Source: Branchiostoma floridae (Eukaryota; Chordata; Leptocardii; Amphioxiformes; Branchiostomatidae). From it: a stretch of 64,000 nt of DNA. Every line of letters begins with the position of its first letter. The stretch's first letter is position 1. The translations under genes and the position numbers were made by a program. The stretch covers positions 17,274,404 to 17,338,403 of the forward strand of contig NC_049996.1 of assembly GCF_000003815.2 (NCBI RefSeq), read 5' to 3'. The notes beneath the pieces are model-generated. The model worked only from the letters and a program-made list of their open reading frames with translations, had not been told where the DNA came from and did not search any database. This document shows, piece by piece, positions 7,901 through 56,995 of the stretch.

Positions 7901-10900
7901 ATCATGCTGTGCGGGAAATCCGCCATCTTTGTTTTCGACGAGGCACGAAGTAGCAGACGACAGTCATGATCGTGGTGCAGATTTGTCCAATTTACCGCCT
8001 TCCGTGCGATACAGGGAATCTGAAGGTGCTTGTTTCGGTCCATGGAAGTCCCATAAGTATCGTTTAGAAACCACTGGCTGGGGAACGGCCATTTTAAACT
8101 GTTTTCGGAGTTTTCTTGTTGTTGTTGTTGTTCGGTGGGGAGGGGGGCGTGGTTGCGAAGTTCGGAGTTCTATTAAAAGTAGGTCAGTTCATAGACTGTA
8201 GCCTTCTGTAGTTTATATGTTATTAACTCTAAGTTAGAAGAATTTTCTGTGCAGATTTGAGCATATTTGGAGCATACAAATCGCCAAAACTAGCGAGTTG
8301 ACGTGGTCCTTGTTTTCTGCACTTCAGCCCTGAGCCGACAGAGGACGCGACAAAGCCAGGGAAACTCCACCTGCCCAGACCTCTGGCAGGTATGTCAGGA
8401 TTGTTTTATTTTCGCTTGCATGTATTTATCAGCTTTACTTATCAAAGTATCAAAATATCATCAGTATTGATATTCAATGATGGGTTTGGGGAGCATGACT
8501 TTGTTAAAGAAATAATTATTGGCATAGAAATCAAGAAATTATTTAATGAATCATTTCATTTATTACTTCATCCTTCCATCCATCATTTATCTATCTAGCG
8601 CTTGATCAGTTCATATTGAACATCCTTTTTTCAGTTCTATGACTTGTCACCATTTCTGTGTTTGCATCCATGGCTTTTTTTTTTACTTTTAATGCTATTT
8701 TTTGGGATGACACACAAAAAGATGCAAACACTTCTATGTACTACTACTATTAGAAGCTTGGTATGATCAAAGTAAGTAAACCAAGGATATTACTGAAAAT
8801 TTTTGTGTGTCTTTGTTCTGCTTGATCAGAATACCTGTTATGTCAGGAGTTTTTCCCTTTTCCTCCTTTGAGCATATTTTTATGTAGCTAGAGAAGATGA
8901 TCAACTGATATAATTTATGCAAATGACGGCCTCATTTGTAAAATCATCAAAGAAACATTTACATTAGGTCACTCTTCACTCACAAGAGACCCCCGTTTAT
9001 GTTGACAGCAATGCCCTACAAACATTCATCGCCAGGCGGATGGAATATGAATACTAAAACACATCAACAACAATCATCAGTATTTATAAACAATAAGGCC
9101 GTCACCATGGCAATAATTTATATTGCCCCACTTTTTCCCTTTTCCTCCGCAGGTCCAGACAGAGAAGGGTTCCTCCCCAGTGGCCGGCGGAACCTGGCGG
9201 TGCAGACAGCCGAGTTCACCGAACCACTCAAGAACCTGTCTGTCCAGGAGGGGTCAGAGGTCAGACTGGACTGCAGGGTCGCAGGTCAAGTAGTGCACTA
9301 CGTTGTCATGTCAAAGTTCAACTGTAATCATACAGTTATAGGAAGACACCTTAACATATGCCCTTCACAAAAAGTCTTAGTTTTGAAACTTGCGCTTGTC
9401 AATACCTTAGTATGTATCTCTGAATGAAGGAAATATGGATCAGTAGAAAATCTTCTGGAGTTGGCTTGCCTCACCCTCAAATTTTAGTCCTCACTTAAGT
9501 TCTCGGTGGGAATAATCACTTGGAGTTTTACAAGAAGAGCCTTAGATTCAGAAAATTGAATCCTGATTTTTCTCAGCTAACAATGTCAAAAGAAACTGTA
9601 CGTTGATGAAGGTTAGACGTCCAGGTAATAAGATATAGCAAAAAGCAGTTACCCAAGCAGCTGGATATGGTTCGGTCAGATGTTTCAGGCACCATTCAAT
9701 GTCTTTCCCCTGTGTCACCAACGAAAGAAACCTAATGGGCTGACCGTTTCCAAAATCATATCCAGTTGCTTGAGTAACTGCTTTTTGGCAAATAAAACTA
9801 GTTTTCAAACATGCCTCTGCTGCATGTATTGTTGTTTGGTTGTATCTTCAGTCTAAAGTGTTGTTGTTACCCTGCAGGCCTTCCCAAGCCCACCGTGTTC
9901 TGGTTTAAGGATGGGAGCGAGGTGCGGCCGCTCAGACTGGGGGTGGAGATCAGGACTGAGGAGGATCGACATACGCTCTACATACCTGTGGCACAGAACA
10001 GGTGAGCACCACACACCTGTACATACCTGTGGCACAGAACAGGTGAGCACCACACACCTGTACATACCTGTGGCACAGAACAGGTGAGCACCACACACCT
10101 GTACATACCTGAGGCACAGAACAGGTGAGTACCACACACCTGTACATACCTGTGGCACAGAACAGGTGAGCACCACACACCTGTACATACCTGTGGCACA
10201 GAACAGGTGAGCACCACACACCTGTACATACCTGTGGCACAGAACAGGTGAGCACCACACACCTGTACATACCTGTGGCACAGAACAGGTGAGCACCACA
10301 CACCTGTACATACCTGAGGCACAGAACAGGTGAGCACCACACACCTGTACATACCTGTGGCACAGAACAGGTGAGCACCACACACCTGTACATACCTGAG
10401 GCACAGAACAGGTGAGCACCACACACCTGTACATACCTGTGGCACAGCACAGGTGAGCACCACATACCTGTACATACCTGTGGCTGAAAATAGGTATGGT
10501 ACAACCAGGGCTCGAAATACCACCTGCATATGCAGGTTAGTGCAGGGAAAATTGGAGCTGTGCAGGTAAATTTTCCCTGTCTACCTGCACCTAATCTGCA
10601 CTGGTCCATGTACTGGGTTTTATACATAAATGTCCTATAATGTACTAGTAGTGGTCCAAGTAAAATGTGTCTGGTGCAGGTAATTGTCAATGTACAGGTA
10701 ATACTATGCAGAAAAAAAGTATTTCAAGCCCTGACAATCGATCTTTCTTTTATGAGTTGTAATTATATCCAAGGCACAGGAATGGTCTTAATGTGGCAAA
10801 TATTCAGATTGACTTACTTTCACCTCAGCACGCCTTCTTCTTGCATCAGTGTATGTACAGAGCACCAAATTGAGAAAAATTTCTCTAATTTACCTATTGC

Positions 10901-13900
10901 ACTTCACTGACATAGTGGCCATACAAGGACATGAGCAGTGTATGTATAACTTTTTATGTCATACCTGTGACGCGAAAACGTTCGATACGGGTGTTCCGGA
11001 CCGGGCCGTATGCTTCCATATCGCACAGGTTCGAAAGGCGTATCACACAGGCTCCATTCGAATAAATCGTACTGTTTCGAGCGGGCCGAATACGGCACGG
11101 TTAGCAATTGGAATACCTGATTCAGACGTTGGAACATTGCTGTTGCAACACTTTTCTGTTCGAGGGCACCAAATTTGTTCAACTTCTGGCGCATTTCGCA
11201 TCAAAACATGGGTTTTCTCAGGTGGCGATCCGACCCGCGGTCGGGCTGATACCTTGGGTGATACGGAATACACCGTGTTGTATTCTATATGTATAAGTTG
11301 AGATGTGCAGGCACCTAGTTAGCTTCCAATACTGTACACATCTCAAGGCATTTATGGGAATCGATAATGATAATATTTGTATTTTCCAGCCACGAGGGAG
11401 TGTACATGTGCCGTACTGAGAATGCAGCAGGGGTGGCCACCTGCAGTGCCATGCTCCACGTACAGGGGGCGCCGGTGGAGCGCTCCACTAGCTCAGGGGA
11501 GGAACACGTCAGCAGCTGCATCAGCAGCTTCTCGCCTATGACCAACACCTCAGGGTACGAACTTTGACCTCTGAACTAGAGCACTCTCACCCCTGAACTA
11601 TAGCACTCTCACCTCTGAACTATGGTATTTTCACCATTGCGCTATGGCAATCTCACCTTTCAATTATGGTACTGTCAACTCTGAACTATGGTATTCTTAC
11701 TTTTGAACTTTGGCATTCTCACCTTCGAACTGTATGTTTTTTCACCCTTGCACTGTGACACACACCATCACCTCTGAAATCTATGGAATTCTTCTTACTT
11801 TTGAACTTTCATTGGCATTTTTACCCTTAAACTTTGGTATTTTCGCCCTTGAACTTTTTCACCTTGTAATTTGGTATTTTCACCTCTTAACTTTGACATT
11901 CTCACCCCTGAACTATGACATTCTTGTTTATTTTTGCAGAAGCTCGACCTGTGAGAACCTCACGGACCACACTTCGGAGACGAACTCGCAGGAGGGCTGG
12001 TGCACGCCGGAGCAGCTGTCGGATGTGGAGGGGTCACCGGAGTTCATCAAGGAGCTGGAGTCTCTCCACGCCGTGCAGGGCAGCAGCGTCATCTTCGAGT
12101 GCGAGGTCACGGGGTCACCCGCGCCCACCGTCACCTGGTACAAGGTACGGAGGGGCTGTTCAGTACTGGCTGTGGGTAGGGGGTAAAGAAGGGACTGTTC
12201 AGTACTGGCTGTGGGTAGGGTATAAAGAAGGGACTGTTCAGTACTGGCTGTGGGTAGGGTCTAAAGAAGGGACTGTTCAGTACTGGCTGTGGGATGGGTT
12301 TAAAGAAGGGACTGTTCAGTACTGGCTGTGGGTAGGGTCTAAAGAAGGGACTGTTCAGTACTGGCTGTGGGTAGGGTCTAAATAAGGGACTGTTCAGTAG
12401 TGGCTGTGGGTAGGGTATAAAAAAGGGACTGTTCAGTAGTGGCTGTGGGAAGGGTGTAAAGAAGGGACTGTTCAGTACTGGCTGTGGGTAGGGGATAAAC
12501 AAGGGACTGTTCAGTAGTGGCTGTGGGTAGGGTGTAAACAAGGGACTGTTCAGAAGTGGCAATACAGATCAAGGGTATAAAGTAGGGACTGTGAAACATT
12601 GGCAGTGGGAAGGGTATGAAGTTGGGACTGTTCAAGTTTGGCAACTTGGATATGGTATTAAGTAGGGACTGTTCAGCATTGGTCCTTGTGGGACTCGTTG
12701 CTCATATTTCTTGGTTTTAAGAAACTTCTTGCTGTGCTCTTGCTCTCCCCAGGATGGCCAGCCACTAGTGGAGGATGGAGACCACGTCTCCTTCGAGTCT
12801 CGAGACGATGGTACCTTCCTCCTTACCATCATCGATGTACAGAACCTGGATGTTGGGACCTACACCTGCCGGGCTGCCAACAGTGTGGGGGACGTGGTGA
12901 CACATGCAGACCTGCTGGTCTCAGGTGAGAACACACCTGTACACACCTGTACACACCTCCACTCACCCGTAGAAACATGTACACACACCTGTACACACCT
13001 GTACAAGCCTACACCTGCCGGGCTGCCAACAGCGTGGGGGACGTGGTCACACATGCTGACCTGCTGGTCTCAGGTGAGAACACACCTGTACACACACCTG
13101 TACACACCTGTATACACCTACACCTGCCGTGCTGCCAACAGTGTGGGGGACGTGGTGACACATGCCGACCTGCTGGTCTCAGGTGTGAACACACCTGTAC
13201 ACACCTGTACACACCTGTACAAACTTACACCTGTCGAGCTGCCAACAGTGTGGGGGACGTGGTGACACATGCAGACCTGCTGGTCTCAGGTGTGAACACA
13301 CCTGTACACACCTGTACACACCTGCTGGGCTGCCAACAGTGTGGGGGACGTAGTGACACATGCAGACCTGCTGGTCTCAGGTGTGAACACACCTGTACAC
13401 ACCTGAACACACACCTGTACATACCTGTACAAACTTACACCTGTCGAGCTGCCAACAGTGTGGGGGACGTGGTCACACATGCCGACCTGCTGGTCTCAGG
13501 TGAGTACACACCTGTACACACCTGTACAGACACTTACACCTGCCGGGCGGCCAACAGTGTGGGGGACGTGGTCACACATGCAGACCTGCTGGTCTCAGGT
13601 GAGAACACACCTGTACACACCTGTACAAACTTACACCTGCCGGGCTGCCAACAGTGTGGGGGACGTGGTCACACATGCAGACCTGCTGGTCTCAGGTGAG
13701 AACATACCTGTACAGGTCTGTACTCACGCACACACCTGTACACACTTGTACACACATGCACACACCTGTACACCTGCACACACATGTACCTGTAAGAACA
13801 CACCTGTATACACCTGTACACCTCGGTATTAAGCTCCAGCAGTAGTTTTTAATGCTATGGTTTGAAGCTTAGAAATGTCAGGTAATCTTAATCTCAGTTT

Positions 13901-16900
13901 TTATGTTCATTTTTGCTCCTGAAGTGATTTTGTCTTTTACGTCTTTACTTTTAGTGAGTGGAGGAAAATTTGCTTTCATGTTACAATGGTAACAATTCAT
14001 TCCCATTAAACACAGATTCTGTATGATTGTGTACAATGGATATAATTTGTAACCACTGAATATTTCCTAAGGTCTTCTGAAACCCAGAGCAACAATTAGA
14101 ATGTCTAATTACCATCTTTAATGAGCAATAATTGGCTAGGCCTTTAATAGTTGAATGTAAGTTCATCTGTGACGGTACTTAACATAATGATACGATTTTT
14201 AAGACTTTATATCCGTACACAAAAATAAAGCGCTTACCAACAAGCTTTCGATCAGTCCTCTGATCCTTCTCAAGTTGTAATGACCCAAGACCTAAGTCGC
14301 ACTTCCGGAACGGACGTGCGACGTCAGTAAAGGGTCAAAGGTGCTTGACAGTCGGTATCGGCCCCCGTCTCGGTTGAGGGAAGGTTGGTGGGCTCTGATG
14401 TAAATGGCCTCTTTCACTCCCCTGAGAAAGTAATCCTGTTCGGAATCAAGTATCTCCACCTTGTCGAAATCCACAGAGTGTCCCGGAGATTCTATGTGAA
14501 TGTGTTGTGCCACCTCCGATGTTTTGACTGAGCTGGGCCGTCTATGCTCTAGAAACCTGGTTCTGAGAGCGCGGCTAGTTTCACCTACGTAGGACTCCTG
14601 ACAAGGGCCACGGATGTTTTGGCCTTGGCAAGGAATGTGGTAAATGACACCACACTTATCAGCCTTTGGAGTTTTATCCTTAGGTGCAACCAAATACTGT
14701 CTCAGGGTCTTTGTGGGTTTGAAGCACGTTTTGACTCCGTGCGTGTCAAAGATTCTCCTGAGGGCCTCTGAGAGGTCTTTTACGTACGGGAGTATGACAA
14801 AACCTCTGTTGACACGACCAGGATCACGGTTAGTAGAACTGGGTTTCTCTATACGGGGTAAGTCTACCTTGTCAATGGCCCAACCAGGGTAGCCACATTG
14901 TTTAAGCGCGGAAACCAGATGTTCCTTCTCTGACAGTATATCTTCTTGTTCCGAGATCACAGTTTCAGCTCTATGGAACAAGGTCCTAACCACTCCGAGT
15001 TTATGGTCAAGAGGATGGTTAGAGGCAAAATTAAGATATTGATCAGTGTGGGTGGGTTTTCGGTATATCTTGATGCGGAGAGAACCGTCTTCTTGAATCA
15101 CAGTCAAGGTGTCCAGAAAAGGTAGTGACTTATTCTGTTCCTCCTCTGTCGTAAACTTGATGTCAGGATCTAAACTATTGAGGTGATCTAGGAATTCTTG
15201 TGCATATATCTTCTTGAGTTTGGTATTGGTATCATCTACATACCTAAACCACCACAAGGGAGGGTGGGGGGCGGTGGTAATAGCCAACTGTTCTAAGTGT
15301 TCCAAGTAAAGGTTGCACACGATGGGACTGACTGGAGATCCCATGGCGGCACCATGGATTTGTTGGTAGAACACCTCATTGTATACAAAGTAAGTGCAGT
15401 GCAAACAGACTTCTAATAACTTTACCACATGTGTAGGAGTCAAAGATGTGCGTTTATTCAAGGTACTATCGTCCTTTAGCCTCTGTAGGATAATGTCTAA
15501 AGCTTTGGGCACCGGGACTGAGGTGAACAGAGCAGTGACGTCAAAAGAACGTAATTCCTCGTCAGGTTCCACCCGTTTGTCTTTGAGAAGTTCGGCAAAA
15601 TGTTGGGAATTTTTGACGTGATGTGACGAATTACCAACTAGCGGTGAGAGAATTTCCGCCAAGAATTTTGAGCTTTGGTAGGTGATAGAGTCCACACTAC
15701 TCACGATTGGTCTGAGTGGCGTCCCAGGTTTATGAATCTTCGGGAGACCATAGAACTTTGGCGGAGTTTCCGTTGTCGGGTAGATCTGTCTATACGTAAT
15801 ATTACTGATTGCCCCGTCTGTTAAAATAAGTTGCAACACACTAATCAACTGTTTCTTGTACTCCCCCGTGGGGTCCTTCAAACACTGTGATAACAGGGAC
15901 TCATTAAGCCTCGTTTGGCCTGTAATTAACTAACGATGCTGGTAATTACGAGCACCCCTGGGGTCAAGCTGGCCTTGGGTCATGTTTGTGACAGACTCGG
16001 TCACACACTTGCAGGTATTTCTGTCACAAACTTGTAGCACAGATTCTGAAGTGAAGCTAAAATGTTGAAAACAAAAGGAAAATTGACAATGTGCAAAATT
16101 ACGTGTTGCAAGCAGGTAGACATAAGGTTAAACAACAATGCAGATACACAGTGAAGGACTGTTTAGGAAGATGCGTTTGCTTGGAAAAACTCTTTTCAAC
16201 CAAAAAGTTGACAAAAACACAAAGAACAACATGCAAGTCTCTGACAGACCCCTGAACATGTTTTAAATTTGATCACGAAAAATAAAAACAAAGAAGTTTA
16301 AAGAAACCAAAGAAGCCAAATTGGGAAAAGGTCAGAGGGGTCGTTACTATGGTAACCGGTAGGAATAATGACCAGTTATTATGGAGCATGTAGTGAGGGG
16401 TTATAGCTGTTCGTGGGACGGCAGGTGAGTTTAATAACAGACCCGGGATGTCAGAGAGGTTACCAGAGTTCCAGGCAGCTGCTTCAGACATGGTTGAATT
16501 TTAGAAGTCTACGGGAGTGTACGGGTACAGAATGAGGAAACTGTTCAGTTTTTCCTACTGGGTTCCGTCGGTGAACGATCCGGTGGTCACGGACGATCCT
16601 GTTGTGCTGATATCATTCAAGTTGGACAAAGAGGCTGGTGAGAGTGAAGGTGGGAGGCCGAGTTTTAATCTGAACAAAGATAAACATAGTGGAGGGGGGT
16701 GGGTATGGTTAGATTCAGTCAGAAACAAACACTTTCTCATTCATTTTTCAGTTGCGTCGAGCAGTAGAACAACATCGGTGAGCTCCTACAAGGCGTCAGG
16801 GCTGGATGAGCTGCCTTCAGGGCAGTCCTTCGAAAGTCTGGGGACCAGTAAGGAGGAGGAGCTACAGATACTGGAGCTGTTACCTGCAGTGGGACCGGAT

Positions 16901-19900
16901 GTCTTACATCTCAGGAGAGGTGGGACGTGTTTGTTTGTTTGTTTGTTTGTTTGCTTGAGAGTCTGCCCAGCGTTTGATGGCAAAGGGTAGTTATCATATT
17001 GGCTGTACATACACATACAGATACAGATACAGAAGCTGGTGTGTTACACAGAAGGGCAGTTATACCATCTATGCAGATATACAAATTCACATGCTTAAGT
17101 TTGGTTTTACCAAGTACACAGATACTGATTCTTCTGTTTCTGGTCTCCATAGGAACGACCCCGCCCCGCCCGGGGTCGCGGCCGGACAGCTCAGCATCCT
17201 CCGACTCCAACCCCATCAAGAGGCTTCGGCTGGAGCACGACTTTGTGTCTGACTTCAGCGAGACAGAGGACTCTACTAAGGTACTGTTCACTCATTCATC
17301 CATCCTTCATTTATTCCTTCACTCCTTCGGCTGGAGCACGACTTTGTGTCTGACTTCAGCGAGACAGAGGACTCCACCAAGGTACTGTTCATTCTTTCAT
17401 TTATTCATTCTTCCATTCATTCCTTCCTCCATTCCTTCACTCCTTCGGCTGGAGCACGACTTTGTGTCTGACTTCAGCGAGACAGAGGACTCCACAAAGG
17501 TATCACTCATTCATCCCTCCTTCATTTATTCCTTCACTCCTTCGGCTGGAGCACGACTTTGTGTCTGACTTCAGCGAGACAGAGGATTCCACAAAGGTAT
17601 CACTCATTCATCCCTCCTTCATTTATTCCTTCACTCCTTCGGCTGGAGCACGACTTTGTGTCTGACTTCAGCGAGACAGAGGATTCCACAAAGGTATCAC
17701 TCATTCATCCCTCCTTCATTTATTCCTTCACTCCTTCGGCTGGAGCACGACTTTGTGTCTGACTTCAGCGAGACAGAGGACTCCTCTAAGGTATCACTCA
17801 TTCATCCATCCTTCATTTATTCCTTCACTCCTTCGGCTGGAGCACGACTTTGTGTCTGACTTCTGCGAGACAGAGGACTCCTCTAAGGTATCACTCATTC
17901 ATCCATCCTTCATTTATTCCTTCACTCCTTCGGCTGGAGCACGACTTTGTGTCTGACTTCTGCGAGACAGAGGACTCTACTAAGGTACTGTTCATTCTTT
18001 CATTTATTCATTCATTCATTCATTCCTTCCTCCATTCCTTCACTCCTTTGGTGGGAGCACGACTTTGTGTCCGACTTCAGCGAGACAGAGGACTCTACCA
18101 AGGTACTGTTCATTCTTTCATTTATTCATTCTTCCATTCATTCCTTCCTCCATTCCTTCACTCCTTCGGCTGGAGCACGACTTTGTGTCTGACTTCAGCG
18201 AGACAGAGGACTCTACCAAGGTACTGTTCATTCATTCAATTTCATTCATTCATCCATGCATCCATCCATCCTTCAGTTTGTTCATTCCTTTATTCATGCA
18301 TTCCTTCCTTCATTCCTTCATCCATCCATCCATCAATTGATTCATTCATGCATTCATTCATTCATCCATTTTTCGCTCATTCATTTGCTCATCCATTCAG
18401 TAATTTGTCCTTTCATTCATTCATTTATTCATTAGTCTGCCAAATGATATGAAAGAATTTGTTCTTTTCAAAAAAGGCTGATACATATGAAACTGAAGTT
18501 TATATTAAGTATCTTCAGATGTTCGTTTAGAAGCTTGAAACTTCAATGCCAGACTTACAATGTGAAAGTTTTTTATGTATCATTTACTTCACAACTGGGG
18601 TAACAAATATATGACTACTTTCACTTTAACGACTACTTTGTAATTTGCTTGTCTTCCTATATGGAGACATTGACGTCATGCAACAATCAGTATTATTATC
18701 AGGATCCGAACCTGGTGCAAAGACTCGGAATCAGGTTAAAAGGATGAAGCATTGTAGTTTTATAACTCCCCGTCCATCCCTTAAGGTGTTTGAGTTGGTC
18801 AGGTTTCCATATTTGTACTGCTTTCTTCCATTTTTTCCATCCTATGTTGTTTTAGTCAGAACAACCCTGAAGCTATTTTGGTGGTTATGTAGAATTGTAC
18901 TATATTTGGCAGGTTCTCCGTCTAATTAGTGTGTTAATTAAAGGGTTAATGACGTACAAATAACTCAGCGGGACAGGTCACAGACCATGTTGTTAACCAC
19001 AAAGTTAATGAGTATGGTCGTTAGACAATTACAGTGATTTTTCCTGTAAACCACTAATTCATGAAATGTTTGGGATTAGACATTAAGTATAATGTTTACT
19101 TGCTCATGTGTGCGTCATCTGAAGGTGATTTAGGGCATTTTCAACCATTCTTAACTTTTGACTGGAAATGAAGCTTTTCTTGTATCGTAAACGTACATGT
19201 ATGAGGGTGCTTCAGGCATTTAGCCTCAGGTGTCAAACCTCTACATGTAAAAGAACCCCTAGCTTGAAAATTGCTTTTGCAGAATATGAAAAGACAATAT
19301 CCGGGTGAATCTTTACATAATAGATTATCACTTACTCATTCACTTTGTGTTTTATAGTCGATCATTTCTGTCTTGGTTTGACTTGCTTGATTTTGAAGTG
19401 AAATGTTCATTATAGCCATAGATTTTGTAACCCTCTCAAGTTTTGGTTCAAGATACTCACTGCAAAACTGTAGAGCATTGAGGACATGTAGAAATTTCTG
19501 TAGTATTTTGTCTGTAAAGCCTTTTTCTTGTCCCCTTCTGTCTTGATTTTAAACTCATGTGTTTGTTATAGCCATAGATTTTGGTTTAAGGTTAACTCTC
19601 TGATAAATTGTAGATGACAAAAGGCAGTGTGAAAGTTTTTCTCTTCCCCATGCAGAATGCAGATCAGTTACTAACACAGTAGGTTAGACATGTGAGAGTT
19701 TTGACTGTTTTTTCTTGTCCCCAGAGTGCTGAGCAGTACACAGTAGTGAGTGACTACACACCTGATGATACAGAGCAAGACAGGGTTCCGCTGAAGGAAG
19801 GTATTACTAAGAGTTTCTACTTAACTCACCTGATTCGTCCGGTGGGGTCGTGTGGTTGTGTGGGTGTTTGGCACAGAACCCAAAGGTCCTGGGTTCAAAT

Positions 19901-22900
19901 CCTATCATGATGCTGATCTTGGGCTACTATGAAATTCACTCCAACAAATATATTTTAAGCTCATTCCTCTTAAATCAAGGAAAACAAAATAACAGAATAA
20001 CAACAATACATGTATGTCTTACGCAGATATTGTGTTCTTACTAGTACAATAGTTGCCATCTGTTCACTGATTTGTTAGTTCTTTCTTCTTTCTTCACCCT
20101 CAAACAACACTCACATTTAGTTGCATACATGGTTCCAAATACCACTATTTTTTAATCATTTTAAAAGTTTTCACAGAATTGTGAGTCACCAGTTAACAAT
20201 ACAACAGGGAAAGTATAAACCTGACAACTTTCTACATCACACCCCCAACCCACGAGTTGCCCATCCAGTATGTCATGTTGTATATATCAGGATTTTTTTT
20301 AAAGACTGAGACTAACTTAATTCAGCCATGTTTACAGCAATGTATAACAGGCTGCAACGTTGTTTCAGTATGTCCTTGTATGTATATGTATATATGTATG
20401 AATAAACCATTGATATATCCTGTTATTTAGTATAGGTCAGGGAAAGGTCGCACAGTGCGGAATTATCACTCATAATAACATATCATCACCTACATGGGTG
20501 ATAACATGTAAGGGCACTGGTGAGTTGAACAACCAGTGCAAAATTACATGTTTGAAGATTTTATCGGTAAAAATGGCAACAAAGTAACAAATCAGTGAGC
20601 AAATTGTTGTAATGATGACAGTCATACAAGACATTCAGTGTAGCAAATTTCCTTGATACAATGGTCTCATACTCTAAACCTTAGAGCCTAAACCAAAGAC
20701 AAATAAAGAATGCTTACTTGTAGAAGCCAATGCAAAAATCTTTTAGTCTCAAGGTACATTACAATTAATTATATTAAAATCATAAAAAGAAGGCAAACTT
20801 ACCAGACTGAGTTTGTCTAGATATCCCACACTAGTATCTGAGTAGATGTGAGTAGTCTCTTTTTATAATTATGCAGTAACCATAGTCCATTTTCCCATGT
20901 ACAAGTATGTCCTTTATGTTTCTACCATGCACTTGTGATTACCTTGAACTTGCAAATAAACTTTCTTTAATTATTTCCTCCTCCTCCTTACAATACACTT
21001 TATGTAGTTACGCAGAAAAAACACACTGAAGATGTCCCCCCCACAGGTCAGATGGTGGAGCTGTTGGACTCATGTATTTGATAGACGTACTTTATGGAAC
21101 TGGAGTTCTGGACCAGTAGATGCCATATTTTGTGCTTGTACAATTGCCATACAATAAAGTTATTACCAGTCACTATCATCACTATTATCTAAAGATGTAA
21201 GCCAGGCTGAAGACGTCTTGTCCCCCCCTCAGGTCAGATGGTTGAGGTGTTGGACTCGTCCAGCCCGGACCTGTGGCTGGTGCGGACCGTGCCCTCCCCC
21301 CCTGAACCCGCCCAGGGCTGGATCCCCCCCTCCTTCCTCCAGACCCTCCCCCACTCCCCCTCCACCCGCAAAGGCAAGTCTGAGACGTCTTGTGAGACGT
21401 CTGGAGACGCCGAGAAGAAACAGCCGAGGAGGGGCAGCAAGGAGATGGAGGCAAGCAGTAAGAGAAGGTGCAGGATGACTTAAGAAAATTCGGGATGTCT
21501 TAAGAAAAATCAGATTGTCTTAAGAAAAATCAGGATGTCTTAAGAAAATTCAGGATCTCTTAAGAAAAATTGTGTCTTAAGGAAAAACAGGATGTCTTAA
21601 GAAAATTCAGGATGTCTTAAGAAAAATCAGGTTGTCTTAAGAAAATTTGTGATGTCTTAAGAAAGAGCAGGATGTCTTAAGAAAATCTTACATCTTAAAT
21701 GAAACTGACTGAAATGTTGCTATCTTCTCTTTCCATCATATATCACTGCTATGTAGACTGTTAAAAAAAGTGTTTTTATAGTTTGCTATATTTTGGAGAT
21801 ACCTCTGAAAACAAAACTTTCTATCTACTTTCTCAAGCACAACTATCTATGTCTGTCAATTCCTACTTTAATAGGGTACATCTCTGCAAAATTCTCTGCC
21901 TCTTGCCTCCTTACCTCTGCCTCTGCCTCTTCCTCTGCTTCTCTTCTCCATTCTCCATGTTTGATGTGTTCTGTACTGTGATGTAGTTTGTAGCAGGCTT
22001 GTTGGTAAGTTCTTCTTTCTTCTTTGACTTGACTTTCTTTCTTTCTTTCTTCTTTCTTGGAAGCTTGGTCTACCTTCAAATGCCTATATTTGATCTAACT
22101 AAAGGATACCTTTTTTAGTATCTCAGTCCTCTTTTATACCATTTGTACCAAAGTTTCTGTTCCATGACAACTGAAACACGTATGATAATAGCAGTAAAAC
22201 ACACACACAAGAAGACAGTCAAACACCATTTGTGCTTTAATGGGCTTCCCAAAAACTTAAAACTTGAGAAAAAGTCTTCCATCAGTGCATATTCAGATTT
22301 GGCATGGGATTGACAAAATATTTTTTACAAAACGACTATTTTTTTGTAAGGAAATGTCTTTTCAACTTTCTCTTTGTTATTTTTCTTGCCCCAGGTTTGT
22401 CCTGGAGGAACTACTAAGGATTTTTATTTCAGCAAGAAAATGTCTTAAAGTTTGCTTTTAACTTTCTCTTTGTAATTTTTCTTGCCTCAGGTTTGTCTTG
22501 GAGGAACTACTAAGGACGGAGGGTGACTACGTACGGGACCTGAAGTTTGTAACCGACCACTACATCGACATGTTTGACTCCCACACGCTGCCGTACCTAC
22601 TCAGGGGGAAACGGGACATCATCTTCATGAACATAGAACAGATTTATGACTTTCATAGTAGGTGAGTTAAATAACACCCCTATGTGTAGACTGGTTTGTC
22701 CCAAAATATGGTCTTCTTGACTGAATTTTGGGTGATGCCACTTTATCTCGGGGGAAACGGGACATCCTCTTCATGAACATAGAACAGATTTATGACTTCC
22801 GTAGTAGGTGAGTTAAATAACACCCCTATGTGTAGACTGGTTTGTCCCAAAATATGGTATTCATCACTGAATTCTGGGTGATGCTACTTTATCTCGAGGG

Positions 22901-28900: not shown

Positions 28901-31900
28901 CAACATGGTTCTGTTCACCAAGCGCAAACGCAACAGTCTGGAGAGCATCGAATACCCCTACAAGGGCCTCATGAGGGTAGGTAGGGGGAAATGTGGGAAC
29001 ATTGTTCACCAACATGGTTCTGTTCACCAAGCGCAAAATTTAATGAAACAGCCTAGAAAATATCAAAATTTAAGGGCCTCATGAAGGTAGGTAGGGCGAC
29101 ATTTGGGTGTATGGTGGTAAATTTGAAAAACATGTTTTCATACTATTAGTTAGATGTTAATAAGCCATATTCGGTTAAGATTAAACTAGAAGCACTCACT
29201 CACTCACTATCCATGTTTGATTATACTGCTGCTGGAGTCCCTGACGCAGGGGCAGGCAGCAGTCGGCCAGTCTTCACACCACGCCTCCATGCGGCTCTGT
29301 CCTTAGGACTTAACATTATGTCTTTGGAAATTGAGGTTTAAGGGGACAGTAGACAATATCGGATACATTTCTTAGCTTGAAAAGAGCACTTTTGGGAATT
29401 CCAAAGACTATATTTTAGCAGTACCATGAGAGTATGTATTGTAGTCATGAAATGCACTTTGAATCATGGCTTGCCTCTCTCTCCTCCTCAACAGTTACCA
29501 GGTATTGGAGTGACAGAAGACGTGGAAGGTGACAGCCGTAAGTTTGAGATGTGGTACGGCAAGCCTGACTCTTCAGAACGGTACACAGTACAGGTGAGAC
29601 ACTGTCAAACAAACAAACAAACAAACAAACAAACAGGGTATGAAGGAAGGTGACAGCCGTAAGTTTGAGATGTGGTACGGCAAGCCTGACTCTTCAGAAC
29701 GGTACATAGTACAGGTGAGACACTGTCAAACAAACAAACAAACAAACAAACAAACAAACAGGGTATGAAGGAAGGAGACAGCCGTAAGTTGGAGATGTGG
29801 TACGGCAAGCCCGACTCTTCAGAACGGTACACAGTACAGGTGAGACACTGTCAAACAAACAAACAAACAAACAAACAAACAAACAGGGTATGAAGGAAGG
29901 ANNNNNNNNNNNNNNNNNNNNNNNNNNNNNNNNNNNNNNNNNNNNNNNNNNNNNNNNNNNNNNNNNNNNNNNNNNNNNNNNNNNNNNNNNNNNNNNNNNN
30001 NAGTTTGAGATGTGGTACGGCAAGCCTGACTCTTCAGAACAGGTACACAGTACAGCTGAGACACTGTCAAACAAACAAACAAACAAACAAACAAACAAAC
30101 AAACAAACAAACAGGGTGTGAAGGAAGGAGACAGCCGTAAGTTTGAGATGTGGTACGGCATACCTGACTCTTCAGAACGATACACAGTACAGGTGAGACA
30201 CTGTCAAACAAACAAACAAACAAACAAACAAACAAACAGGGTATGAAGGAAGGAGACAGCCGTAAGTTTGAGATGTGGTACGGCAAGCCTGACTCTTCAG
30301 AACGGTACACAGTACAGGTGAGACACTGAAGTAACAAACAAACAAACAAACAAACAGGGTATGAAGGAAGGAGACAGCCGTAAGTTTGAGATGTGGTACG
30401 GCAAGCCTGACTCTTCTGAACGGTACACAGTACAGGTGAGACACTGTCAAACAAACAAACAAACAGGCAAGCAAACAAACAAACAGGATATAAAGGAAGG
30501 AGACCGTAAGTTTGAGATGTGGTACGGCAAGCCTGACTCTTCTGAACGGTACACAGTACAGGTGAGACACTGTCAAACAAACAAACAAACAAACAAACAG
30601 GATATAAAGGAAGGAGACCGTAAGTTTGAGATGTGGTACGGCAAGCCCGATTCTTCAGAACGGTACACAGTACAGGTGAGACACTGTCAAACAAACAAAC
30701 AAACAAACAAACAGGATATAAAGGAAGGAGACCGTAAGTTTGAGATGTGGTACGGCAAGCCTGACTCTTCAGAACGGTACACAGTACAGGTGAGACACTG
30801 TCAAACAAACAAACAAACAAACAAACAAACAGGGTATGAAGGAAGGAGACAGCCGTAAGTTTGAGATGTGGTACGGCAAGCCTGACTCTTCAGAACGGTA
30901 CACAGTACAGGTGAGACACTGTCAAACAAACAAACAAACAAACAGGGTATGAAGGAAGGTGACAGCCGTAAGTTTGAGATGTGGTACGGCAAGCCTGACT
31001 CTTCAGAACGGTACACAGTACAGGTGAGACACTGTCAAACAAACAAACAAACAAACAAACAAACAAACAAACATCTTAGATGCAGGGTTTTGAAGAGAAC
31101 ATCATTCTGCAAATGATATGGTGATGTGGTTTGGTGGTTGTAGATTTGGTATAATATTCATCATTAGCTGTGAACAGCAGATATATAAAATTTCAGAATA
31201 TGTATCACCTGTCATTGTTCAAGAATGCAGGTATTCAGTATATTGTAGTGTAATCAATAAAAATGCAATGTGGCAAATTTACAGAAAAATTAAGTGCTAA
31301 ATGTTTTGCTGTATCCATTTCAGGTGCTGATTGTAACACTGATAGAATTCTTGCCTATCATATAACAATATGATGTTGATCTTTAACACCTGCTCCCCAG
31401 GCCAAGACCATCTACGTGAAGCAGGCCTGGGTGAAGGAGATCAGAGACATCTTAGACAAACACTCACAGGAGGCACAAGGTAAGGAGGCACTTACAGTCT
31501 CTCAAGGACACTTGGGATTTTCTTAAGGATGCCTCAGGTTTATTCAAGGACACACTGTTTTCAAAGAGGCAAGATGCAAGCTTTTGAAGATGGGAAAAAT
31601 TGTTTTAGTAGTTGAAATTGTTGTAATCATTGAGAAAAGTCATGAATACACATATATATAGTTATGATATCTGTTCTTGTATTTTATGTATATTATGATT
31701 CGATGTATCATTGTTATGTTTAAGGTATGGCGGCTTCGAAAAGGTGTCTTTTGACACCTGTTCCGCCATACCCTCCAGTGTGGTGAATCCAAATAAATAA
31801 ATAAATAAATAAACACAAATAGAATGTTTGAATTATGATCATGGTTATGTTGTAGAATTTTGCATCTGATCTTAACTGCCCTCAGGAAGATATATCAATT

Positions 31901-34900
31901 ATTTTGTGGATTTGTTTTTAACCATGATGGCGAGGAAGTGTGTGTTGGAAGCTACTGTGTTTACAATTGTTGACAGTTGAAAATAGAATGTTATGTTGTT
32001 AACGATTCTTTTTAATCTTTTACCGTTTGTGTAGATGTGAAGTCTGCAGTTGAAGCCAGAATATCAGCGATGGAAAGCACCAGTAAGTATACAGTCTAAA
32101 ATTGTAGATGTCCATTTTCATGTGCGATATCATAGAAGAAAGTATGTTGAGATCCTACATATACGACAATGTAATGAAATATAGGTTTGTAAGAATGAAA
32201 CTTACATTGTCCTATATATATAATCCTTTACTCTTGGTAAGAGTTTTTATCTGAACTGAATATTTTCCAACAATTTGTGGCCTGTGCTACACTGCTGCCG
32301 TTATTGTTGTTCCTTCGTACAGTTGCTATGGTGACAGTCTCCATAGAAACCCTGTTGTTATCTTCTGCTCCCAATATAACAGATTCCAACATTTGCAGCC
32401 TGCACAACACTGCAGTGCATGCTGTAATATAATGTCAGGGTCATTTTGCTTGTACCGACCGATGATGATGACAATCTCGCAAACTATTCCAGTTGCCATG
32501 CCGACTGTTTCCATAGTAACCATGTTGTCCTTGTCCCCAGGCTCCCTTGGCTCCTCCATTGACACCCCCAGCACCCCGACAACGCCCTCCAGCTCTGGGA
32601 GGTAAGGAAAAATAACAATCATACATTTATCCGTAAATAACTTCATTGGGTTAGCAATTATTCATATAGCATTTCTTTAGGCACAACCAAAGAGTATTTA
32701 CTTCCAACGTTTCGATGTCTATCAGACACCATCATCAGGGTTAGAATGACTGGATACTACTTCTTGCTGCTGCTTATAGCCGATGTAGGTGGCGTTGCAG
32801 CAGCAAGAATGCCGTCCCAAACGTGGCTCAGCTTGTATCCCCCCTCGTCTCTGTTCATGACTGGAGCTGATTTTCTGATCCAGTCTGCCTCCTTAATCCA
32901 CCGTGTCCTTCTGTTTTCCTCTCTGTCGATGACTCTAGCATGCGTTTACGGAAGGTCTTTATTTCTGCCACAATGCGTACGTATGGAGGGATGTCCCTGT
33001 GGCTCAACTGGTAGCAGCCTCACAGTTGAGCTCCTGGTCCAAATTAGGCTTAGGTCACATTTCAAAACCGGGGCCTGGCCGGGATGTTTAAAGAAATGAA
33101 AAATTAAAATGTATACCTAGAAATATACGTATGTAATTTCCAAGAATCTTATGTTGACATTTCGTGTATTTTGATGTCCTTTATATCATTCTTTTCCCTC
33201 TCGAAAGCTGCCCGGTTGGGCCCCGGGATGGCAATTGTGACCTAGGCCTTAGTTGGTAACTCAGGGAGACACTGTTCAATCCTGGAAGGGGTATCTTGTT
33301 TGGGACTGTAACTGTCTTCTTTGCACCTGCTTTTTGGAAGGGATGTGAAAATGGGAGTGCCTTATCTAAGGAGGTGCCTGTTAAGCATGTTATTAAGGGG
33401 AAGGGCTAGCAACGTCCCCCTGCTACAGAAACAGCAACTTGAGCAAGGAAACTTGCTGCTTTGCATGTGTGCCACTACAAGGGTCTGAACAAATGAACTG
33501 AAAAATTGCATACATGTACATGTGTCTGTGTACCTGTACCAGGGCTCAAAATACTTTTTTCTGCATACCTGTACTGGTGCCAGTAACATTGAAAATTACC
33601 TGCACCAGGCAAATTTTACCTGCACCACTCTGAATTTAAGAAGTATGGATCATACTAAAATTGTTCAGGAATCATTGCTATTTTGTCTTTTATACTCTAT
33701 AGCTATTACGTGGTAGCAGTCAAATGAATGCAGCTAATCCATACACACCTACATCATAGGACATTTATGTATAAAACCCAGTGCATGGACCAGTGCAGGT
33801 TAGGTGCAGGTAGACACCAGAAGTACCTGCACAGCTTCAATTTTACCTGCACTAACCTGCATATGCAGGTGGTATTTCGAAACCTGTGTACAGAAACATG
33901 TAGCTGACTCTGCTCTTCCCAGATATCTATAACCCATGCTGCCAGACCACAGGAAAATCCTTCAACTTTCAAGATATTAATTTTCAATCTCTCCTGACCT
34001 CCCTGATTGAATAGTCCCCCCAGACCAATTTTCCGCCGTGCTATTTTTACAGCCCCGTAACAGGAAGCCATGATTAGTCTGCTGACGTGCAGATGTAACA
34101 TGATACCTCAAGGGTCACGCTTACCTCACGTTGCCATGGTAATGGCAGGAGATTGCATCATTTCCAGTGAAAGTATAATGTATAATATGTTTCTGCAGCA
34201 GACAGAGGCACGTGTCAGGACCGAGCCCTCGCCGCCGCGGCAGTAACGTCTTCAGCGAGACCAGCTTCGACTCCCTCATACATGCTGCTGAGGTGAGACG
34301 TCTTAGGGATTGTCTTTAAGATTTATCTAATGAGATTTCACATCAGATCACCTGAGATGTGTTGAGGTTTCTTTAGTCTGCTCTGATAGAAGATTTGAGG
34401 AAAATTTACCGTCATACCTTTCTTAGGTGGCACCATCTTAACACTGCTAAGGTAAGACATTTTAGACAATATCTTAAGATACTAAGATGCTGCGATAGCT
34501 GTAAGATTTATTTAAGGAAAATCTACTAAATCTGTCTTCACTGACACTTATCGTCATACACGCAGCTGAGGTGAGATATCTTATACAAAAATGTCTTTAA
34601 GATGCAGTGATAGCTGTAAGATTTATTCAAGGAAAATTTACCAAATCCGTCTTCAATGACACCATCTTAACACCGCTGAGGTAAGACATCTTAGATATCA
34701 ACTTTAAGATGCTGTGATTCTGATGTAAGATTCAGTGACACTTAATGCCATGCACACAGCTTAGGTGAGATGTCTGAAACATTGCCTTTAAGGTCCTTTA
34801 ATTCAACCAAGAAAATCCTTTTAGGTCTTTAAGGCACTTTGATGATGTTCAAGGCAGGGCTCTAGCCAGCGTCCGTTTTTCCGTCAATTGACAGAAACTT

Positions 34901-37900
34901 GCTGCGTGTGACGGAATTTTTTTAAACCAATCCGTCAACCTTGGCGGACAAAGCTCCTTGGTGGAAGCTACAGGCGGCTTGGGGACGCTGTCCATGGTCG
35001 GAAAGCCACACACTGTTTGTTTTGCTATTGTTATGACTGTTGACTTATTGTGTCTGCGCCCTTTCGCATATGGTAATCTCATTAAAAACCTGTTTTTCAA
35101 GGTCTCAGTTCCGTCTTTGTAACTCGATTTTCGCGACAATGGGAATCGGCTGACAGAAAAAAATTTCAAGCTGGCTAGAGCCCTGGTTCAAGGTGAACAA
35201 AAATTATCTTCAGTTGTATAATAAATGATAAATGTTGGTCTGAAGACTGGGAAGTATCTAATACTGAGTTTCATAAAGAACATGCGTATATTTCTTTCAT
35301 GTGTCAGTTACCCTTGGAAGGGTATTGCCATACATGAATAAACAATTATAGTGAATATGGAGCCCTTCTAGTGACTAGTGAATAACAATACACTTCTGAG
35401 AAAGGTGATATTGAAAAATGTTTTATGTATTTGCTTGAACTTCCATTTATTCAATAGGACATGAGAAGCTCAAATTGACCTGCAGGCTGCTTTTAGATGT
35501 ATGTGTTAATCAAGCTTTTGAAGTATGTTGGTGTCCCCCTAAACTCAAATGTTACGTAGTTATTAATAGATATTATTTTATGTTCTTTCCTTTCCCGATC
35601 CTAGTAGTGAGAGGCTAGTATGGAGTGATTATAACATATTTTTTTGTGCAAAAAAGCTATATTTGACTAGTAAAGCATCTAAGACATCTTGTGGTATATC
35701 CCCTTACAGACCCTTGTAGTTGGAGGCTTGTATGAAGTGTTGGAGACCGTCATCGTGGACGGGACGGACGAGTTAGAACTGCACAAGGGCGAACAGGTCA
35801 AGGTCGTCAGGAGCGGGGGCGACGACTTCTACCTCGTGGAGGTCAGAGTTCAAAGTTCATTATCTCAACTTTTATCTGTAGTTCTTAAAATTGATATCAA
35901 TATGTATCATCAATCTAGTTTTTGCGTTGAGCAGTCACTATTACTAACTCACTATCTGATTTTAGAGCAGTTTGCAGTTTTGTCAGCAAGTTTATACCTT
36001 TAATAGATGAAGTTGGCTGGAGAGAGGGCTGGGTTCCAGGCTAACATGTGTGTTTCTGTAGCCTATAACAGATAAAGGGGAGTTAGCTGGAGAGAGGGGC
36101 TGGGTTCCAGGCTAACATGTGTGTTTCTGTAGCCTTTAACAGATAAAGGGGAGTTGGCTGGAGAGAGGGGCTGGGTTCCAGGCTAACATGTGTGTTTCTG
36201 TAGCCTATAACAGATAAAGGGGAGTTGGCTGGAGAGAGGGGCTGGGTTCCAGGCTAACTTGTGTGTTTCTGTAGCCTTTAACAGATAAAGGGGAGTTGGC
36301 TGGAGAGAGGGGCTGGGTCCCAGGCTAACTTGTGTGTTTCTGTAGCCTTTAACAGATAAAGGGGAGTTGGCTGGAGAGAGGGGCTGGGTCCCAGGCTACC
36401 TGCTGAAGAAGACAGGAGGAAAAGAGATGGCTGACGGTGAGTTGGCATGGTGAGTGTCGGCAAGCACTCCTCTTTTTTGTCTTCTTTCCTTCCCTACATC
36501 ACCAGTGTTACCATTTATCATGTCTTATTGTTTATTTGTCTCATTTCATCTTTCAAGTCCTATTCCTTTACCCAGTGCCCTCCCTTTTGCGTTCTTTTAT
36601 TCCCTTGTTCTATGGAAAAATCATAGTAACTGCCTAGAAACTGAGTGCTAGGTTTGGTTTAGTTTTCAACCTAGCAAAGAAAGCCTGGAAATGCGTTACT
36701 GTTGTACTCCTGAGTTAATTGAAAAGTAGATGGTTAACTCACAGAGTAATGAAAATGATTAAAAAATTTTGAAAGGCCACAACCAGATAACTGACCTGAA
36801 ATGGCCTTTCTAGAACAACAGTCAGAAAGATCTCGGCTGTTTAAAGGACAAGTTTCTTGTACAAAATAGCACCCAGGAAAAGGAAGGGTCGTACATTGTT
36901 GTACATGTAGGACTATGTAACAGCTGTTGGTGTGACCTTCTTTGTTGAATAGAAATGTAGAACTAGACAACCACCTGTTGCACAGACACTTCTGATCGGT
37001 TGCAGAACCTAAAGCTGCAGTTTCTGCTTTTTCCTTGGTGGTAAATGGATCGGGAATATGGGCAACTGTAGCTTCAGGTTACGCACACGTATGAGTTTTA
37101 GTTTCATTTCTTGTAACGATTTGGGTTAGTTTGCTACATGTCATGTTTCTAATGATGATTACTGTAAATACATTTAAGTTCGCGGGGACTTAATTTCGCG
37201 GTAGCGGGAAAAGGGACTTTTCGCGGTGGTTTTAATTTCACGGTAGCACCATGCACTGTAGTATCTTAATGCCATGGAAAAATGTTTGCGGTGGTTTTAG
37301 ATTTGCAGTGAAATGGCTGACGCGAAAACCGCGAACATAAATCCACCGCAAACATTTCTGCATTTACAATCATATAGTTGATATGTGACAATTTTGATAG
37401 GTCCATGGAATAGCAAAACAAGATGATTTTTATATTCTTTTATCCTTTCCATTGTAAAAATTGTAGAAGTACCAGGGCTCAATATAGTGCCTGCATAATG
37501 CAGATTAGTGCAGGTAAAAGTATTTCGAGCCCTGGTACTGTGTTCCTCAGATGATAATGACTTAATAGATATTATAAATTGACCCAGTCTGCGTGTTTCT
37601 GACCCTAGTAAGTTCTTAGGAAGTAGATTGTAAATTGTGTCTCAGATGGATATTAAGATTGGCCTTTCCTGTCCCCAGATGCCGCCCACTTCGTGACGCC
37701 GCTCCGAGAGCTCACACACAGGGAGGGGGAGACCGCCACCTTCTCCTGCCAGTTCGCGGGAACTAAACCCATCGTCGTCTCGTGGTTCCACGACGGCGTC
37801 ACCGTGGAGACCGGCGACAGGCTGTCAGTCATCACCACTGCGCAGCAAAGCTCGCTGCTGATTGGTCGAACCTTGCCAACGGATTCGGGGAGATACGAGT

Positions 37901-40900
37901 GTGTGATCAGTAATGAAGCTGGGACGGAAACTAGCCTAGCAGAGCTGGATGTCAGGCAGAACAGTGAGTTTCTTTCTTAGAAGAAGAAGAACTTTATTGC
38001 ACGACAACTGTAGAGGATACAGTGTTTGGCAACTTGAACATACAATACATACAGAACAGAACACTACATGAGTTACTAGTATCTAAAACTCTAACAGACT
38101 AATCTATTTTACACATGGTATATAATATTTACAGTCAGGCTATCATTATGTGCTGGTTCATGATAGTATAATATCGTCACGTTTTTTAAATGAGTTATGT
38201 ATAAATTGACCGACATAGGCAGATATATCAGCAGGACATGATAGTAACATATTGAACATTTCTGTCTTGGTAGGTGGTAACATAGTATCAGATTTGCATT
38301 TAATAGACTGTAACATTTTTTGTCCTTATGATAATATGCCACCAGGGCTCGAAATACCACTTGCATATACAGGTTAGTGCAGGTAAAATTGGAGCTGTGC
38401 AAGCATTTCTGGTGTCTACCTGCACCTAACCTGCACTGGTACATGTACTGGGTTTTACACATAAATATCCTATGATGTAGGTGTATATAGATTGTTATTA
38501 GCTGCATTGACTGTTACCGCCTATAGAGTATAAAAGAAAAAATAGCAATGGTTCCTGAACGATTTTAGTATGATCCATACTTCCTAAATTCAGAGTGGTG
38601 CAGGTAAAATTTGCCTGGTGCAGGTAATTTTCAATGTTACCTGCACCAGTGCAGATATGCAGAAAAAATATTTCGAGCCCTGGCCACACATACTTTGATC
38701 TCATGGTAGAACTACATGGGTAGCTACATCCAGTGTAAAACTCACAGAAACTATCTTGGCCCCTGGTTAGCTCTATAGCTGATTATCCATGACCAGTTAC
38801 GCCGCCCATAGCTGTCAGCTCTGTCCGGGCCCTCTAGTGTCTGTTTGACATCTCTGCCTATTAAGTAGGTCCTCACAAAGCTGGATGTCAGGCAGAATAG
38901 TGAGTTTCTTTCTTATCATCTCATGACACCAAATTCAACATGCAAAATGTCCGTTTTGATAACAGAGCCCTAAAACAAGCTAAAATCCCAGATACACTAC
39001 TATTGCAAACTCACCTCACCTCACCAGTCCCAAAGTCTGATTGCAGATTATAGACTGGTTGATACCTTTTATATCCTGTTTGAAATATTCAAAGACTTTT
39101 CCATATATTCTAAAAGTGCCCCAATGCCCATTGTGGTTTTTCTTTTTACCACAAAAGAAAACAGAAAAGCACCCTTTTTGGTAGAGTTGTATCTTGCAGT
39201 TACTTTTTTTGTCTTGTGAAAGTGAAATCATTTATCCAGTATAGCTCACTGAAAATCTAGTCTCCAACAGGTGCTATGTACAGTATTTACAGGTTAACTG
39301 TACCGGGGAAATTCCCCTAGCTCTTTTCAACAAGCACAATGAACAATGGACCACGGCTTATAACGTCCCATCCTAAGGACTGCAACCCTTTCCAGTATAC
39401 TAGTACTGTGCATTTGGGGTGAACGACACAGCCGCAAGCAAACTTGCAAATCTGAAGCTTTTAAATACAGTTGCTGAGAACTGTTGTGTTTAATTGACTT
39501 TGCCTGGTGTGCTGACAACCGACCAGCTTCATTGCTGTGGCCTGTCCCAACTGCCTGTACTGTCTGTACACACACATGCACAGGAAGTCACGTCTGTCTG
39601 GGTTTGCCGACCTAACCTTCACACGTTTACTCCTAACACAGAAACATGGAGGACCATTTCCTGACACTACATTATACCACATGTGGGGCAAATAAGGGGG
39701 AGGGGTCATAAATTATTAGAAACTTGTTATAAGGAATCTAAAACGCATTTGCAGGACCTTACTTTTAAAAGTTTACTCCTGGTACGTAAGCAGGGTTTGA
39801 AATACACATACTTAACATGCAATTTGCACACAATTTTTTGAGATTTGCATGTAAAATTATTCTGAACTTGCAATCTTGCATGTTGAAAATACCTGGCCTA
39901 TTGTAGAAATACTGAGGAATTAGACACCCTACTCTTAGACTAGACAAGAAGACATATGGACGTCTGTCTTTGTCCTTCCTTATTTTTGCCAGTAACTTTC
40001 TCTGGTAGCTTTACTAGATGTAATCAAAATTCACCGATTCAAGCTGGCGATACTCGTCGCCATCGCCGCCTAGTTGTATTTTGCATGTTACTTTTTCAAA
40101 TTGCACGTAAAATTTTTGCCAACTTGCAATTTTGCATGTAGCAAAAAAAAGTATTTCGATCCCTGCGTAAGCATGTCAGACCATTTACTATATATATATA
40201 TATATGATATTTGAATGTCTGTTCAACATGCACACATTTCACAAAAATATTGGAAAACGGTAAGTAATGTCATAGAATGCTAATATCAATGCGAAGGTCA
40301 ATGAAGAAGATATGAAAGAACCAAAATGAACTCTATTGTTTGGTATACCATATTCTTGTGTTTTTAAGTCATTTATTTTGTTCAACCGTCCTGACCACTT
40401 AGATTTGATAATGAAGGCAACATTTTAGGGGGCCAAATTTCTGTAGATTTCAAATTTTGTTGGCATGCTCGCATCAATTCTGGGGTTCCCGGAGGATGTG
40501 ATCCATATTATCAAATCCACATGGCCGAGGGAACAGGAAAAGTCCTGCCCTTATCAAAGATCTACAGGCACATTTCAAGTGTTCCTGTACAGACTAGTTC
40601 AAGTGTAATGAACGAGCCTGGCTGAAGTCCTTGTGTTTGGTACAACACAGACCTGCATGGGTGCTGCAAACATCCAAGACTTGTCCTCATGAGGGTCTGC
40701 ATGGGGGGGCCTGACAATGAATTTTTGCTAAATTTGGGATGGCTGACTACGCTTTATGATAGATTCACGAAAGCTACCAACATTTTACGCTTCATCCCAC
40801 TACGAATTACGTAAAATAAAATAGCTTCCCTACGCCTTACGAAAAAGCATGCAGACCCTCTGTCATGTTTTGTCTGCCAGATTACAATACTCTTTGAAAT

Positions 40901-56679: not shown

Positions 56680-56995
56680 GGGACAGTCCATTACACAGCT
56701 GGGGGTATGTATGTGGTGTTGAGTTGATTGACTGGGGACTGTTCATTACACAGCTGGGGGTATATGTAGTGTGGGGGGACTGTTCATTACACAGCTGGGG
56801 GTCTGTAGGAGGTGTGTAGGGACTGTTCATTACACAGCTGGGGGTATGTAGGAGGTGTGTAGGGACTGTTCATTACACAGCTGGGGGTATGTAGGAGGTG
56901 TGTAGGGACTGTTCATTACACAGCTGGGGGTATGTATGGGGTGATGAGTTGATAGACTGGGGACTGTCCATTACCCAGCTGGGTGTGTGGGGACA
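56680..56995 (+). repeat. Minisatellite of about 45-58 bp
   Basis: Six to seven copies of GGACTGTTCATTACACAGCT GGGGGTATGTAGGAGGTGTG T with variable length. No exon sequence involved. Confidence 0.93.

Follow-up and report, generated by a model that had tools for sequence, protein, structure and literature searches.

Duplicated exon borders in an obscurin/UNC-89-like gene

Why should tandem repeats recur at the exon–intron borders of a single gene, and do such duplications favour borders at all? The question is raised by a 64,000-nucleotide stretch of the Branchiostoma floridae genome (NC_049996.1, positions 17,274,404 to 17,338,403; hereafter the window), in which exon ends and their splice sites reappear in the adjacent introns. 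Exons are numbered as in the original prediction on this DNA. The region analyzed covers exons 11-33, giving 46 scored borders. Because these 23 exons join in one frame with 0 stops, their borders are well supported without RNA.

9878-37963, plus strand: exons 11-33 of the obscurin/UNC-89-like gene (Ig, SH3, RhoGEF, PH, SH3, Ig), from open frame, Pfam and structure matches

Pfam matches were obtained for I-set, RhoGEF, PH and SH3_2. The first SH3 domain matched the obscurin structure 1v1c, and the best matches of the DH-PH region among solved structures were Trio/Dbs/Kalirin. Ig, SH3, RhoGEF, PH and further Ig domains, as looked for in an obscurin/UNC-89-like gene, were all found. Judged by domain content and structure matches, the predicted product is obscurin/UNC-89-like with a Trio/Kalirin-like DH-PH. 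A 545-aa open frame lies inside the intron after exon 14 (14295-15929, minus strand); its reverse-transcriptase match of 23.9 bits is below the cut-off of 29.6, and we read it as a putative transposable element.

Border-spanning copies were found in the adjacent intron for 15 of the 46 borders. Donor arrays follow exons 11, 14, 16, 19, 25 and 26, and a degenerate one follows exon 30. The acceptor side has an array at exon 32 and single copies at exons 18, 19, 25 and 31. Acceptor 17 and donor 18 are two weaker cases among the 15. The features, all on the plus strand, are as follows.

9979-10484, plus: donor array of exon 11, 12 copies of a 41-bp unit with 23 exonic and 18 intronic bases, GT in 12/12
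12858-13843, plus: donor array of exon 14, mostly 97-109 bp units, 7 aligned copies
17224-18398, plus: donor array of exon 16, 97-118 bp units, 10 copies
21233-21467, plus: borders of exon 18, one diverged acceptor copy 186 bp upstream; the donor touches a 20-bp array at 21468-21698
22380-22530, plus: exon 19 acceptor, copied 96 bp upstream
22600-24110, plus: donor array of exon 19, 10 copies of a 147-bp unit, 62 bp of it exonic
28383-28735, plus: exon 25 acceptor, copied 212 bp upstream at 73% identity over 157 bp
28784-29107, plus: donor array of exon 25, 3 copies of a 109-bp unit, the last partial
29524-31073, plus: donor array of exon 26, units of about 114-125 bp, 12 aligned copies, with a 100-N gap at 29902-30001
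34270-34800, plus: donor array of exon 30, degenerate, the 4 intronic copies being 27-30% diverged, GT in 4/4
35598-35740, plus: acceptor of exon 31 and a diverged copy 112 bp upstream
35997-36401, plus: exon 32 acceptor array, five acceptors repeated with a 71-bp unit
37935-38915, plus: donor of exon 33 and a single copy 936 bp downstream, 36/40 identical

The donor arrays were checked by TRF, self-BLAST and alignment of their copies. All seven had been named in the original prediction and were confirmed, that of exon 30 by alignment, as it was too diverged to be picked up by TRF or self-BLAST. The displaced donor copy of exon 33, also named there, was recovered. Borders were further scored by matching 80-base border probes to the neighbouring 600 bp and to dinucleotide-shuffled versions of it (n = 200). 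Acceptors 18, 19, 25, 31 and 32 scored above every shuffle. Thus four of the five acceptor duplicates originally proposed stood (18, 19, 25 and 32), whereas acceptor 17 was weak (P = 0.01, under the shuffle maximum); the exon 31 copy is an addition. The donor 18 probe beat all shuffles, yet its match spans only about 9 exonic bases. Donors 12 and 13 and acceptors 13 and 29 also exceeded all shuffles; these matches include no exonic bases and hence were left uncounted.

The intron arrays at 11567-11922 and 12151-12693 contain no border. The second of these begins 7 bp past the donor of exon 13 and has a GGGACTGTTCA core in common with a window array at 56735-56943, the units being 39 and 43 bp, respectively.

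Border preference depends on how duplications are counted

In a per-base map, where a border was called duplicated at an identity of at least 28/40, 11 of the 46 borders of the window gene were duplicated, compared with 6181 of 22095 intron positions (28%). The rotation test gave a mean of 11.9 borders and no excess (P = 0.66). The excess is absent by this measure because the arrays fill the introns, such that a 12-copy array counts twelve times. In the event-level test each duplication family was counted once and re-placed at random; placements that engulfed an exon, lay wholly inside one or overlapped one by more than one unit were barred. Nine of 11 families in the window gene lay on a border by this count, compared with 1.72 expected, in a gene that was picked for its arrays.

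The same test was applied to a sample outside the window comprising 54 superloci (21 myosin, 23 RhoGEF and 10 kinesin) with 174.6 kb and 237 predicted exons. Ten of the 14 families were on a border (4.08 expected, P = 0.0008), and 7 of 11 after removal of the densest gene, L045 (3.29 expected, P = 0.015). A version using TRF arrays only gave 9 of 20 (3.5 expected, P = 0.0024), but without L045 the result was not significant (4 of 14, 2.35 expected, P = 0.19). When families with units of at least 45 bp were considered, a cut chosen afterwards, 8 of 8 in the window and 10 of 11 at the other loci were on borders.

Several choices define these results. Event-level families were hand-edited from self-BLAST, with the second L045 cluster divided into two families. 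Dropped from the set were L040 and window 7166-7433 as coding and L048 as exon-internal. Window array 21468-21698 was scored as non-border, predicted exons lying within arrays were left out of the null, and the TRF-only test excluded two L040 arrays as coding. Exons outside 9878-37963 are ab initio predictions. The predictor called 22 of 23 window exons exactly, with no false plus-strand call in 9500-39000, having been partly trained on them, and recovered 63 of 70 homology-matched exons. On the window minus strand it made 11 calls, several of them opposite plus-strand exons. The kinesin sample consisted of 10 exons taken from every 12th row of a profile listing by hand count (row 109 for 108). 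Five random 10-kb stretches contained few predicted exons and entered no test. A search of the kinase family, which was set aside, returned matches that were mostly near-full-length and single-exon.

From these data we conclude that over-use of borders appears only when each array is treated as one event, and that it is uneven between gene families. The original claim that splice sites are over-used therefore holds for events and fails per base. The genome-wide test proposed with it was run on a sample of loci, where the preference was clear for RhoGEF loci and absent from the myosin loci and the kinesin sample.

Border duplications at other loci

Border duplications were frequent in RhoGEF loci (L039-L068) and absent in myosin loci (L009-L038). 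All ten non-window border families fell in RhoGEF loci (10 per 98 predicted exons); the 120 predicted exons of the myosin loci and the 19 of the kinesin sample had none. The RhoGEF loci are relatives of the window gene, which belongs to the RhoGEF genes too. Four RhoGEF exons were fetched later; three of these loci had no long local duplication, and at the fourth, L087, two were present, each on a border of the same exon.

Nine loci beyond the window carry border duplications. The densest, L045, has two acceptor arrays, one donor array and further border repeats within 3.2 kb.

L045: acceptor array, 15 copies of 72 bp divided between two blocks
L045: second acceptor array, 39 bp
L045: donor array, 77 bp

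One or two border duplications each were found at L043, L049, L050, L057, L065, L067 and L087. The kinesin gene L084 has an acceptor array at 151 bp; it was spotted via the profile listing and was excluded from all tests.

The two blocks of the 72-bp L045 array are separated by an unrelated insert (oriented positions about 460-900). Donor arrays occur at the PH-domain exons of L045 (2176-3130) and at window exons 25-26, apparently at matching intron positions; the intron parts are unrelated, and chance or a shared weak spot could explain the coincidence. L040 contains coding-looking repeats (1-435 and 1172-1248, oriented) with units of 36 and 27 bp which, in contrast to border arrays, are multiples of three. 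A motif like TTCAGCACCAAGGACAGG, on either strand, recurs across minisatellites of unrelated loci as a dispersed minisatellite core (L010 3200-3496, L064 2721-3107, L083 8-105 oriented, window 28383-28620).

Intronic copies carry an excess of synonymous variants

Copy alignment took in 22 borders. L067 gave no variant, and the aligner did not recover the acceptor 19 copy, though the duplicate map and the shuffle test show it. When the exonic part of intronic copies was compared with the working border, 80 of 157 unique substitutions were synonymous, with 40 expected. To allow for substitutions in the working copy, which could by themselves raise the synonymous share, the analysis was restricted to variants whose working base recurs in another intronic copy. 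In this set 52 of 115 were synonymous, with 29 expected (P = 5e-6 at transition weight 2 and 8e-5 at weight 4), P values that are optimistic since the copies are related rather than independent. The window gene alone gave 36 of 74 (18.3 expected), and the other loci a modest 16 of 41 (10.7 expected, P = 0.047; P = 0.11 at transition weight 4). The exon 14 array was the clearest case, with nine synonymous unit variants and one non-synonymous; the exon 19 and exon 30 arrays had no synonymous excess.

Only 2 of 53 alternative sites (49 donors and the 4 acceptors of exon 32) would be in frame and open, one at exon 14 (+258 bp) and one at exon 16 (+219 bp), and translation of the copies in place is an unlikely source of the bias. 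By this frame analysis the exon-proximal site would normally be the only productive one, as originally proposed. As the copies would hardly be translatable in situ, the simplest reading is that the copy lineages once occupied the translated position, and the arrays appear to be seeded anew from the working border or to exchange with it. In none of 5 arrays did divergence change significantly with distance from the exon. This result does not favour a one-way conveyor with an age gradient, and exchange would fit better.

Origin of the arrays

We lean towards the view, which we rate as somewhat probable, that the arrays are mirages, i.e. DNA-level tandem duplications spanning one border, with the working border as their recurrent source. 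Arrays of this kind would be tolerated, since splicing still proceeds at the exon-proximal copy and the other copies are intronic. Unequal exchange or gene conversion may draw copies from the working border or pass them through it; the exon would provide the matched stretch for exchange, and the array would hold past synonymous exon variants. Amphioxus is extremely polymorphic. In such a genome exons might be the best-matched stretches between homologous chromosomes, and recombinational repair that starts in exons could fail where homology ends, whereby the border would be re-copied. The fuller proposal of a copying process specific to exon borders, in which the translated copy would be a perpetual template, exons would be homology islands and introns would record past synonymous alleles, is speculative and strikes us as unlikely.

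The main competing explanation requires no special mechanism. Random tandem duplications would arise anywhere, those internal to exons would be purged, and those confined to introns would blur faster as both copies drift; border duplications would remain recognisable since the exon changes slowly. The border position within the unit appears spread out, which is consistent with such survivorship. The absence of a per-base excess and the non-significant TRF-only result without L045 count both in its favour and against a recurrent source at the border. Also against a recurrent source are the lack of border families in the myosin loci and the kinesin sample, the modest synonymous excess outside the window and its absence in exons 19 and 30, and the fact that a single duplication yields some synonymous excess via changes in the working copy. 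However, several border arrays are young (2-10% divergence), an age at which survivorship bias is small. In addition, intron-only families with long units are lacking: of the 19 with units of at least 45 bp (a cut chosen afterwards), 18 are on borders. Survivorship also leaves unexplained the synonymous excess among variants segregating within arrays. We regard it as a serious but doubtful alternative.

The remaining explanations carry far less weight. Extra splice sites might have been selected to buffer mutation, to serve as decoys or to tune splicing. Splice dinucleotides are indeed intact in 86 of 89 intronic copies compared with 77.5 expected, a slight excess that is confounded because the copies are related. 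A frameshift or stop would follow from 51 of the 53 alternative sites, and the myosin loci have 0 border families. The buffering and decoy functions raised in the original prediction thus found no direct support, and we consider a selected function improbable. Transcription- or RNA-linked copying through an R-loop, reverse splicing or template switching on the transcript draws on border position only. The intron sequence within the units rules out spliced RNA as the template, leaving the reverse-splicing route first suggested unsupported, and RNA-linked copying in general seems very improbable. An assembly artefact of repeats or merged haplotypes would accord with the N gap within the exon 26 array and with one globin mirage that, according to PMC3087553, was aberrantly assembled in an old draft. 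However, a globin mirage has been reconstructed from traces, and Illumina data have borne out the PGBD5 repeats (PMC3087553 and PMC3902484). Array copies in the window carry distinct variants and indels, and border duplications are also present at the nine other loci, making an artefact the least probable explanation of all.

Comparison with known mirages

In PMC3087553 and PMC3902484, mirages are reported in Adh3, the globins BflGb6 (acceptor) and BflGb9 (donor), troponin C and PGBD5, the name having been given at Adh3 according to these citing papers. PMC3087553 already includes both acceptor- and donor-type mirages and gives unit sizes of 10-160 bp. It also reports length instability, proposes that mirages act in intron gain and calls their mechanism unclear. 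The likeness pointed out in the original prediction is borne out: in the window, too, tandem units span the border on the donor or the acceptor side, AG/GT is kept in many copies, and the border arrays, at 41-147 bp, are within the reported range of unit sizes. As in the mirages already described, normal splicing from the exon-proximal copy would be consistent with the frames. Splicing and length instability are reported for the known mirages; the window gene is represented by one haplotype. A search for a second haplotype returned, among 40 scored out of 5266 candidates, the window itself and otherwise one short dispersed repeat.

Two other systems bear comparison. Human internal tandem repeats (PMC2812944) also alter gene structure; they differ in being found in segmental-duplication paralogues. 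The Rogers model, as cited in PMC3087553, derives intron gain from tandem duplication of AGGT sites. Duplicated splice signals such as those described here could similarly create new introns, although the window gene shows no new intron.

In the papers cited, mirages have been treated gene by gene, and a genome-wide survey or test was not found in the literature searched. About one-third of the examined borders are affected here. We conclude that the window arrays belong to the known mirage kind, to which they add a density of 15 of 46 borders in one gene, an event-level border test and a synonymous signature. Together these additions yield measurable predictions on the origin of new units, on a possible scaling of border copying with heterozygosity and on its possible contribution to intron growth and intron gain.
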